This document shows positions 14,592 through 35,594 of a DNA stretch of 43,426 nt, piece after piece. Source of the stretch: Thermodesulfobacteriota bacterium. Its GTDB lineage: Bacteria; Desulfobacterota_D; UBA1144; Nemesobacterales; UBA2774. The position numbers and the translations under genes are program-made. The first letter of the stretch is position 1, and the number at the start of each line of letters is the position of its first letter. The stretch is from the NCBI GenBank assembly GCA_021604765.1, contig BQJP01000023.1, forward strand, positions 1 to 43,426. Direction: 5' to 3'. A model generated the notes under the pieces. It was not told where the DNA came from, searched no databases, and saw only the letters and a list, made by a program, of their open reading frames with translations.

Positions 14592-15539
14592 TTATCCTGA
14601 AAATAATTGTAACTGCATATAGTTTCTGAGATTAATAATTGACTCTGGGGGAGGACTATAGTTCTTAATGATTTCAGGGTGTATGGCTTTTGCCAGTATT
14701 TCAAGTCCATCCACTATTCTTGGTCCCGGTCTGCTGAAATATGAGTTTGCATCTACAACATAAATCTCTCCTTTATTTGTTGCTGGAAGAGAAAACCACT
14801 CGTCTTTAGAAGTTACGGTATCCAATTCGTCAATGGTTTTTTCTATATCAAAACCGCAGGGCATTATAAATAGCATATGAGGTGCGAAATCTACAATTTC
14901 TTCCCAAGTGGCTTTAAATGAAGGTTCTCCAGGCTTTCCTAAACCGTTTTCTCCACCAGCAATTTCTACCATCTCGGGCACCCAATGACCTCCGACAAAA
15001 GGAGGGTCAAGCCACTCGAGACAAAACACCCTTGGACGGTCTCTCTCGTTTTCAAGTTGTGATCTGACTCTTTCTACTCTTGCTTTGAGACTGTCTGTAA
15101 TCTCCTTTGCCCTTTCCTGTGTTCCTGTAGCTTCGCCTATTGTGGTTATAGTATCGAAGATTTCATATATCGTTGTCGGTTCTAAAGAAATTATCTCCGG
15201 AGTATGTCCTAGTACCTCTAGTGCCTCCATGACCTGATTGCCGGATACTGCGCACACTTCACACAGCTTCTGAGTCAGGATAATATCGGGGTTAGCTTCT
15301 TTAAGAGCTTCTTTATCTACAAGATAAGTACTCTTTCCTTCAGATGCATTTTTCATTACAAGATCATCTATTTCCTTACTAGATAGCTTTTTGTGGTCAA
15401 GGAAGCTCATGATAACAACTTTCTTTTCTTTAACCTCAGGCGGATAATTACACTCATGCGTTACTCCCACCAGGTTGTCGCCCAGACCCAGCTCATAAAC
15501 AATTTCAGTAGTACTAGGAAGAAATGAACAAATACGCAT
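14592..15539 (-). CDS. signal-less BtuF-like cobalamin/metal-complex binding protein
   Basis: A 315-residue protein of the same helical-backbone receptor fold as BtuF (opening MRICSFLPSTTEIVYELGLG; later PSFKATWEEIVDFAPHMLFI and RPGPRIVDGLEIL). It begins directly at the fold, and a stop codon lies in frame just upstream (15543-15545), so there is no signal peptide and it should stay in the cytoplasm. Two cysteines form a CxxC (KLCEVCAVSG, C93 and C96), with a further Cys in IMPCGFD. These could bind a metal or the corrinoid, but that is inference. It stands between the propeller lipoprotein and btuF in the riboswitch operon. It could be an intracellular cobalamin carrier or reservoir. Similar signal-less proteins are known in other bacteria, but their role is unclear to me. 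Confidence 0.75.
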   Translation of the reverse strand: MRICSFLPSTTEIVYELGLGDNLVGVTHECNYPPEVKEKKVVIMSFLDHKKLSSKEIDDLVMKNASEGKSTYLVDKEALKEANPDIILTQKLCEVCAVSGNQVMEALEVLGHTPEIISLEPTTIYEIFDTITTIGEATGTQERAKEITDSLKARVERVRSQLENERDRPRVFCLEWLDPPFVGGHWVPEMVEIAGGENGLGKPGEPSFKATWEEIVDFAPHMLFIMPCGFDIEKTIDELDTVTSKDEWFSLPATNKGEIYVVDANSYFSRPGPRIVDGLEILAKAIHPEIIKNYSPPPESIINLRNYMQLQLFSG

Positions 15540-33500: not shown

Positions 33501-34160
33501 ATGAAGATAGCACTATTGGGTGGTACAGGAGATATAGCTGAAGGACTAGTGCTTAGATGGTCCAAGGCAGGGCATGAAATTATCGTAGGGTCGAGGAGTG
33601 AAGAAAAAGCTCAAACTATTACTGACGAATACAAAGAGAAGTTAGCGAGCTTAGGTATTGAAGGGCAGATTACAGGAATGGCAAATGCTGACGCAGCCAA
33701 AGCTGCCGAAGTTGTGATTATCAGTATTCCTCCTGAGTATGCCGCATCAACAATCGAATCAATCAAAGACAGCTTCACCAATCAGGTAGTTGTTACACCA
33801 GTTGTTCCTATGTCTAGACATGAAGACAAAGCATTCATGTTTGAGCCGCCAGAGCACGGATCTTGTGCACTAGAGATACAGGCAGCACTTCCTGAGACTG
33901 CAAGGCTTGTATCCGCATATCATAACCTTCCGGCTAAAGAGCTTAGCCAAGTCGAAGAGGATCTAGATTATGATGTGGTAATTTGCGGAGATGATGAAGA
34001 GGCAAAAGCAATTGTTACAAAAATCACAGAAGATATGCCTACAATGAGAGTACTAGATGCGGGACCACTAAAACTCTCTCCAATGATCGAGGCTATTACA
34101 CCACTTATTGTTAATTTAAACGTTAAGCACAAAAAACATTTTTCTGTAAAATTTGTCTAA
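33501..34160 (+). CDS. npdG: F420-dependent NADP oxidoreductase (NpdG-like)
   Basis: A 219-residue Rossmann protein. The opening KIALLGGTGDIAEGLVLRWS has the GGTGD variant of the dinucleotide motif typical of F420H2:NADP reductase, followed by GHEIIVGSRSEEKA with the Ser/Arg NADP-binding pair. VVISIPPEYAASTIESI and SAYHNLPAKEL also fit, as does the C-terminal LDAGPLKLSPMIEAITPLIV. The enzyme passes hydride between F420 and NADP. It supports F420 use in this organism, in line with the luciferase-like gene at 20999. A GGAGAG lies 8 bases before the ATG and a terminator follows. Confidence 0.9.
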   Translation: MKIALLGGTGDIAEGLVLRWSKAGHEIIVGSRSEEKAQTITDEYKEKLASLGIEGQITGMANADAAKAAEVVIISIPPEYAASTIESIKDSFTNQVVVTPVVPMSRHEDKAFMFEPPEHGSCALEIQAALPETARLVSAYHNLPAKELSQVEEDLDYDVVICGDDEEAKAIVTKITEDMPTMRVLDAGPLKLSPMIEAITPLIVNLNVKHKKHFSVKFV

Positions 34161-34169
34161 TAAATTTCA

Positions 34170-34197
34170 GGGGCAGTTTTCAGACTGTCCCTTTTTT
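34170..34197. terminator. intrinsic terminator between npdG and yjbQ
   Basis: GGGGCAGT (34170-34177) pairs with ACTGTCCC (34184-34191) around a 6-base loop, with one G-U pair, followed by T6 (34192-34197). It serves npdG on the plus strand. The minus-strand gene yjbQ ends inside the T-run, but the minus strand has no long U-run after the stem. Confidence 0.88.
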
Positions 34198-34615
34198 ACT
34201 CTCCCATAATTTGAAGAATAATCTCTCTTGATCTAGGCCTAGTATCAAAATCTACAAATATTATCTGCTGCCATGTCCCTAACAATAATCTAGATGAAGT
34301 AAAAGGAACTGTTAACGAAGCTCCCTGAAGAGCCGCTCTTACATGAGAGTAACCGTTACCGTCTCCCCATCTGGCGTCATGATGATATCCAATATCTTTT
34401 GGAGCAATTCTCTCGATTGCTTCCTGATAATCCCTGATCGCTCCGCTCTCGTATTCAATCGTGGTGACACCCGCTGTCGATCCGGGGATAAAAATCGTCA
34501 CTGCTCCCGATGATACTCCAGAATCACTTACACCCTTAGCAACCTCTTGAGTGATATCTATTAAATCACTATCACCATTTGTTTCCAGTCTAAGACCCTG
34601 AGTTATTACAGCCAC
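34196..34615 (-). CDS. YjbQ/UPF0047 family protein
   Basis: A 139-residue protein covering the complete UPF0047 domain. SGAVTIFIPGSTAGVTTIEY, HHDARWGDGNGYSHVRAAL and LLLGTWQQIIFVDFDTRPRS are the conserved blocks, with clustered His and Asp that may bind a metal. Weak thiamine-phosphate synthase activity has been reported for the family, but the physiological role is unclear. The start is GTG (34613-34615), 10 bases after the stop of the metallo-beta-lactamase-like gene, so the two are probably co-transcribed. Confidence 0.92.
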   Translation of the reverse strand: MAVITQGLRLETNGDSDLIDITQEVAKGVSDSGVSSGAVTIFIPGSTAGVTTIEYESGAIRDYQEAIERIAPKDIGYHHDARWGDGNGYSHVRAALQGASLTVPFTSSRLLLGTWQQIIFVDFDTRPRSREIILQIMGE

Positions 34616-34625
34616 TCTGCATCTC

Positions 34626-35594
34626 CTATAAAAGATTTAGTTGAGTAGGTTTTTCAAGCGCAATCGCTTCATATCCATTGTTTTGTAATGTTTTAGCAAA
34701 CTCGTTGGCATATTTGTCAATTAGATAAACTTTTTCCGGATTTACTTTTTCCACATATTTCAGAAGTTCATCATATCCGGCTCGAGTACTGAAAGTGAAT
34801 GCTCTATCCGCATTAAATTCAGATGTAATAGAGGATAATTCTTCTGTACCGCTCTCAATAATAATTGCTGATTTCTTACTCTTGATTTTATGGATGTTAG
34901 CGGAATCAATTTTTTCCAGTGGCATGATTACAACTTGTTCTTCAATATCTTCAGATTGTAGAAGCTCATAATCACCAAAACTTACTCCCAGTTCTTCGTA
35001 TATTTTGGTAACATTATAAATTGATTTATGTAATCTGAGCTTAAACCCGCTTTCTCCTAGTGCTTTAATAATATCTTGTGCCACACCCATGGTATTAGCC
35101 ATTAGCATTGGTGTCGAATTTGAAGATAAAGCTTCCCCAATAAATTTTATTAAGGGCTCCATGGATTCCTCGAATCTAGGAAAAATATACTCTGGTAATC
35201 CGAAGGAGCATTTTAAAACCAGAACATTGCAATGTTTAATACTTATACTCTCCGCCGTAGGCAGTTCCTTTAAATTTATGTCTCCAGAATAGATCAACGT
35301 CTTTTCGCTTTTATCGACAATTATCTGAGCAGAACCTAACATATGGCCTGAGGGAATCAGTTCAACCTGGAGATTGCCGAGAGAGAAGGGCCTGTAGAAT
35401 GGGCAAGCAAGAAGTACTGATTTTTTAACCTTCTTTTCTAAAAACTTAATAGTTTCATGTGTCGCTATAATTTTTTCAGGTGGAGTAAATTTATCTATAT
35501 CTGCGTTGGAAATGAAAGAAAGCCTTGCTTTCTTTTTGGAATCAAACCACAGACCAGTGCCTTTTAAGTGTATTCCATTGTTATATTCAATCAT
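34626..35594 (-). CDS. degenerate metallo-beta-lactamase-fold exonuclease-like protein
   Basis: A 322-residue protein aligning by eye with mRNA 3'-processing or ligase-associated MBL exonucleases (COG1236-like). The order of blocks is kept, but most metal ligands are gone. The usual HxHxDH is here NADIDK (residues 30-35), so three of its four ligands are changed. H84 in SGHMLGSAQI and D105 in YSGDIN remain. The usual ESTYG block is KCSFG (128-132), and the late SxHAD motif is STRAGYDEL (269-277), losing His and Asp. It is therefore probably not a zinc nuclease and may be a nucleic-acid-binding or structural relative. The C terminus ends PTQLNLL. It lies upstream of yjbQ. Confidence 0.72.
   Translation of the reverse strand: MIEYNNGIHLKGTGLWFDSKKKARLSFISNADIDKFTPPEKIIATHETIKFLEKKVKKSVLLACPFYRPFSLGNLQVELIPSGHMLGSAQIIVDKSEKTLIYSGDINLKELPTAESISIKHCNVLVLKCSFGLPEYIFPRFEESMEPLIKFIGEALSSNSTPMLMANTMGVAQDIIKALGESGFKLRLHKSIYNVTKIYEELGVSFGDYELLQSEDIEEQVVIMPLEKIDSANIHKIKSKKSAIIIESGTEELSSITSEFNADRAFTFSTRAGYDELLKYVEKVNPEKVYLIDKYANEFAKTLQNNGYEAIALEKPTQLNLL

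Follow-up and report, generated by a model that had tools for sequence, protein, structure and literature searches.

A conserved beta-CASP pseudo-nuclease of Candidatus Dadabacteria with a candidate sliding-clamp-binding tail

The 43,426-nucleotide stretch of DNA analysed here (hereafter the window) encodes a small metallo-beta-lactamase (MBL)/beta-CASP protein that has lost its metal site and ends in a candidate sliding-clamp-binding motif. We consider it probable (roughly 0.6) that the protein stems from a family of clamp-tethered nucleases, and that Dadabacteria, like some lineages elsewhere, lost catalysis but kept the tether and now have a non-cutting modulator. Observed here are the fold, as modelled, the loss of the site in all aligned orthologues, purifying selection, and the conservation and phyletic pattern of the tail. 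The features concerned are located in the window as follows:

34626 to 35594, minus strand: pseudo-nuclease ORF of 322 aa with an ATG start and an unbroken frame; mini beta-CASP metallo-beta-lactamase fold, as predicted, without a metal site
34196 to 34615, minus strand: yjbQ (UPF0047, TIGR00149), 10 bases downstream of the pseudo-nuclease on the same strand
35490 to 35507, minus strand: degenerate motif 2, NADIDK (residues 30-35), instead of HxHxDH; first and last His missing in 29 of 29 Dadabacteria rows
35343 to 35345, minus strand: H84, former motif 3 ligand, retained here but shared by just 5 of 29 Dadabacteria rows (alignment count)
35280 to 35282, minus strand: D105, former bridging ligand, retained here and shared by 17 of 29 Dadabacteria rows (alignment count)
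35199 to 35213, minus strand: KCSFG (residues 128-132), instead of E-S/A-T-F/Y-G (alignment with relatives)
34770 to 34790, minus strand: STRAGYD (residues 269-275), instead of SDHAD, with His replaced by Arg at 271
34629 to 34643, minus strand: QLNLL (residues 318-322), candidate motif for binding the sliding clamp, located in a flexible tail (alignment, consensus, low pLDDT)

The frame is unbroken and is accompanied by yjbQ, both as stated in the initial annotation of this DNA. In 13 of the 14 Dadabacteria loci compared yjbQ is the next gene, the exception being L038, which has no yjbQ; this neighbour says little about the function of the pseudo-nuclease. Convergent with yjbQ, an F420-dependent NADP oxidoreductase-like protein is encoded at 33501-34160 of the window (plus strand), and its gene is found nearby in all 14 loci. 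No conserved replication or repair neighbour was detected at the loci compared, which counts against a tether to the clamp.

Search of NCBIfam led to one strong full-length relative, TIGR04122 (E-value = 7.3e-41), while Pfam gave only a sub-threshold RMMBL domain. Membership of the window protein in TIGR04122 was rejected, because its 140 bits lie below the cut-off of 325; active relatives fall below the cut-off too (P0002 with 207 bits, L128 with 208 bits), and a true member, P0003, scores 481. TIGR04122 is a ligase-associated DNA damage response exonuclease, the MBL protein of the ligase/Lhr/phosphoesterase cluster. The window protein shares with it full-length homology, size and block order, but it has no ligase neighbour, no metal site and, unlike any of 13 TIGR04122 proteins, a clamp-type tail. 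A ligase cluster of the TIGR04122 type does not recur beside the Dadabacteria gene in the loci compared. One Dadabacteria genome (L034, 6962-9555 of G034:C7) bears a true TIGR04122 exonuclease (481 bits) besides its own pseudo-nuclease, and a TIGR04120 ATP-dependent ligase (656 bits) comes immediately after the exonuclease. A plasmid search with the window protein returned TIGR04122-type matches and one split Legionella gene adjoining a ligase.

The AlphaFold2 model, for which the window protein was aligned to 24 relatives, had a mean pLDDT of 89.7 and a pTM of 0.89, with pLDDT dropping to 67 and then 52 in the last two blocks (residues 311-322). Foldseek matched the model to CPSF73, TTHA0252, Cas14, RNase J and SNM1A (E-value = 1.3e-16 to the CPSF73 chain), and VIA-align superposed it on the archaeal KH-CPSF with Z 31.4 and an rmsd of 3.2 over 321 aligned residues. 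On the evidence of the model, the window protein is a small MBL/beta-CASP protein with the fold of the superfamily, as the initial annotation had proposed; the superposition agrees with that proposal and the matches of both programs rule out another fold. The full-length TIGR04122 match together with the fold search excludes a chance resemblance.

Ligand blocks are numbered here by what we take to be the beta-CASP motif scheme. The earlier readings NADIDK, KCSFG and STRAGYD were all correct by sequence and alignment. Of the claim that only H84 and D105 remain, the presence of both holds, but D34, the Asp of HxHxDH, is retained as well. The window protein does not carry the HxHxDH and further metal ligands of an active nuclease, an intact HxHxDH occurs in none of the aligned Dadabacteria orthologues, and a search among these relatives for the full ligand set found it in none of them. 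Even H84 and D105 vary among Dadabacteria; L006, of the same genus as the window protein, has T84 and N105, so that ligand positions are still eroding within the genus. In the Dadabacteria alignment, variability exceeds that of 84-92% of sites at the former ligand columns 34, 35 and 84 and also at columns 293-294. The protein might still be an enzyme, its site rebuilt with another metal or replaced by a metal-free chemistry via D18, C129 or H271: D18 is invariant and C129 near-invariant (one exception) across the 29 rows, His stands at 271 in 23 of them, and purifying selection is strong. We regard this as improbable, since no conserved ligand set has taken the place of the lost one at these variable columns and the window protein itself has lost H271. 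K171 is present in 22 of the 29 rows and is V in the window protein; it belongs to the GKAQ[DE] loop, presumably located on the substrate side of beta-CASP proteins, and the retention of this loop in most relatives agrees with nucleic acid binding rather than showing it.

Relatives with an intact site are found in phyla other than Dadabacteria. In the phylum of genome G084, which we take to be Myxococcota, matches with an E-value of 1e-20 or better come from 150 of 193 genomes, some of which carry a second, TIGR04122-type copy. Intact-site proteins also occur in the Zixibacteria phylum, where 38 of 132 genomes have a match of 1e-35 or better, and in archaea, where 16 of 194 genomes have one of 1e-25 or better; several further bacterial genomes contain them too. 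A tree computed without the motif and tail columns placed Dadabacteria in one clade (support 98), beside the Zixibacteria protein L128 with its full active site (92), and the bacterial clade holding Dadabacteria (99) was set apart from TIGR04122 (99). The family is a sister group of TIGR04122, and its members in other phyla mostly have the full active site.

An orthologue was detected in 32 of the 57 genomes of Candidatus Dadabacteria; that of G004, cut by a contig end, was dropped before counting, and the frame is intact in all 31 full-length orthologues. Several Dadabacteria families lack the gene; the reduced-genome family f8 has it in 0 of 14 genomes and some other Dadabacteria genomes are also without it, therefore it is not essential across Dadabacteria, which we counted against a clamp tether. 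In genus g10 of family f6, which is not the genus of the window protein, 45 of 55 pairs were unsaturated; their dN/dS had a median of 0.082 and ranged from 0.032 to 0.161. Three unsaturated pairs inside the genus of the window protein gave about 0.11 to 0.18; for the window gene paired with its closest relatives, dS was saturated (1.6 to 3.1) or dN/dS was not computable. The whole protein is under purifying selection, and since the metal site is lost in every aligned Dadabacteria relative, it is a maintained pseudoenzyme, in agreement with the earlier suggestion. Decay in one genome was rejected, because orthologues occur in 32 of 57 genomes, all those aligned have lost the site, and selection is purifying. 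That the gene is a decaying remnant heading for loss throughout would accord with the erosion of ligand positions within the genus (T84 and N105 of L006) and with its absence from several Dadabacteria lineages, but it is very hard to reconcile with 31 intact frames, a dN/dS of about 0.08 in the related genus, and a tree in which the site loss predates the gene-bearing families in the sample.

The conserved C-terminal motif, absent from the initial annotation, appears to be the strongest functional clue. All 29 aligned Dadabacteria end in Q-L-x-L-[LFI], with Q318, L319 and L321 invariant and N320, at the x position, more variable than 93% of sites; judged by sequence, invariant Q and L around a variable x at a flexible end is the pattern of a short linear motif. 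Excerpts of PMC13254535 give the bacterial clamp consensus as Q-phi-x-[LM]-[FL] or Q-phi-x-[LM]-x-[FL], and excerpts of PMC12309361 give it as QL[SD]LF or, more generally, QxxLF. We searched for the motif within the last 15 residues in a strict and a looser form, and shuffled tails provided the chance level. The published client consensus is conserved in Dadabacteria, where 30 of 31 tails match its strict form (shuffled tails 0.86) and 31 of 31 the looser one. In the presumed Myxococcota the strict form is present in 14 of 21 rows (shuffled tails 0.74; looser form 18), and in rows from other phyla in 6 of 9 (0.44; looser form 8). Active relatives and the other degenerate ones thus usually have the motif too. 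None of the 13 TIGR04122 proteins has either form (shuffled tails 0.01 for the strict one). The seven presumed myxococcotal rows that miss the strict consensus count against a clamp tether, as do the Zixibacteria-phylum members, which score 0 of 34 (shuffled tails 0.09; looser form 22) although the closest active relative in the tree belongs to that phylum. Many of these tails read N-[YLIM]-[DE]-L-F and thereby retain the last two residues of the motif. The archaeal tails were scored for Qxx[LIM]xx[FYWH], which we take to be the PIP pattern, and 6 of 14 have it (shuffles 0.12); the eight without it count against a tether as well. Archaeal L131, L133, L134, L137, L138 and L139 combine an intact site with a PIP-like C-terminal motif.

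The 21 presumed myxococcotal rows were chosen for spread among the 150 matching genomes, not at random, and the 13 TIGR04122 controls were assigned by their annotation and by the style of motifs other than the tail. Of 17 archaeal rows, L135 and L136 were left out as near copies of L134, and L146 because its frame is short. Also left out were two near copies from the G084 phylum, L051 and L074, as well as L196, whose tail is the same as that of L167, the split gene L099, and L152, which runs off its contig.

Two of the 38 non-overlapping ORFs in the window have the consensus at their C-terminus, the pseudo-nuclease and a BtuF-like protein (14592-15539, minus strand) that ends in MQLQLFSG. A chance C-terminal match in one of the 37 other ORFs counts against the clamp reading of the tail, and QLQLF looks like chance: it is retained in 6 of 30 BtuF-like orthologues (window copy included), all at 85% identity or more in a set spanning 57-100%. 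The BtuF-like protein is more conserved overall than the pseudo-nuclease, yet its QLQLF decays, whereas the tail motif of the pseudo-nuclease is kept across relatives of 36-71% identity.

CPSF100 and IntS9-type proteins are maintained inactive beta-CASP proteins, and the initial annotation compared the window protein to CPSF100. Such partners act in RNA processing, are larger and are paired with an active paralogue, which was not seen here. A search of the genome with TIGR04122 for an active paralogue, as had been suggested, did find one other MBL/beta-CASP protein, a 472-aa RNase with an active-looking, intact site (G000:C15, L032 1045-2463), but it is of another type and the genome gives no sign of a pairing with the pseudo-nuclease. 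A maintained pseudoenzyme acting as a CPSF100-like partner of this RNase, its tail being a structural element or a contact for another protein, would explain the CPSF-type fold neighbours and the presence of an active beta-CASP RNase. We find this explanation rather unlikely, given the family's affinity to the DNA-repair exonuclease TIGR04122, the lack of RNA-processing gene linkage at the loci compared, and a tail that fits the clamp consensus in bacteria, resembles a PIP box in some archaea and is missing from TIGR04122. With this DNA-repair exonuclease as the nearest family, and not an RNA-processing beta-CASP protein, the parallel to CPSF100 is not supported.

A likeness may also be found in human SNM1A (DCLRE1A), which, according to excerpts of PMC7607226, docks on PCNA via a PIP box. 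Both proteins have the MBL/beta-CASP fold, and in the window protein docking on the sliding clamp by a short motif is a candidate feature. SNM1A is an active 5'-3' exonuclease with a PIP box and a UBZ, while the window protein has lost catalysis and its motif is C-terminal and of the bacterial type. The window tail also fits the consensus of beta-clamp clients such as PolC (QLSLF), DnaE and RecB (QVEMEF), as they appear in excerpts of PMC12309361 and PMC13254535; these are active enzymes with demonstrated clamp binding, whereas the window protein is a candidate client by its motif. The genome encodes DnaN at G000:C2:111067-112161, and its DnaE has a canonical-type motif, QHSLF, at residue 920 of the frame.

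These comparisons suggest the following course for a clamp-tethered origin. Most bacterial members of the family have a clamp-type motif (QLxL[FL] or variants) at the C-terminus, and some archaeal members have a PIP-box-like motif in its place; either would dock the nuclease on the sliding clamp, much as SNM1A is docked on PCNA. In the ancestor of Dadabacteria the metal site would have been lost once, with fold and tail staying under selection. We infer that the tail binds the DnaN clamp, with PTQLNLL entering the DnaN pocket, and that the body of the protein still binds DNA. The empty beta-CASP cleft could then sit on DNA, or the protein could hold its place against other clamp clients. It may thereby occupy or modulate the clamp; this outcome, a non-cutting modulator, is the weakest step of the proposal. 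The present role is probably that of a docking or blocking protein.

Pseudoenzymes are familiar in signalling and in eukaryotic RNA processing and far less so in the replication and repair apparatus of bacteria. Should the tail indeed bind the clamp, the pseudo-nuclease would be a natural experiment, with docking taken apart from catalysis by evolution. It would also indicate that culturable bacteria, very probably including Myxococcus and Anaeromyxobacter, possess an active nuclease family that is as yet uncharacterised. No report of a clamp motif in this family, or of this pseudoenzyme, was found in the openly licensed PMC literature, which is weak evidence of novelty.

More tentatively, and at somewhat less than even odds, bacteria and archaea may have in common an unrecognised family of beta-CASP DNA nucleases tethered to the sliding clamp. 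This prokaryotic counterpart of SNM1A, its motif fitted to the clamp of each domain, would repeatedly have given rise to proteins that stay on the clamp without cutting, the tether being kept more strongly than catalysis. With seven ligand positions scored and regain disallowed, the site was lost in three clades, namely Dadabacteria and two groups in the presumed Myxococcota, one of eight rows and the other of a single row; the grouping of the eight rows is weakly supported (56). Five of the degenerate loci (L086, L088, L093, L094 and L095) adjoin a glycosyltransferase-type gene (Pfam on four of the five), and some have histidine-kinase-like genes near. At other loci of the same phylum, a pseudouridine synthase gene is often found near the active relatives.
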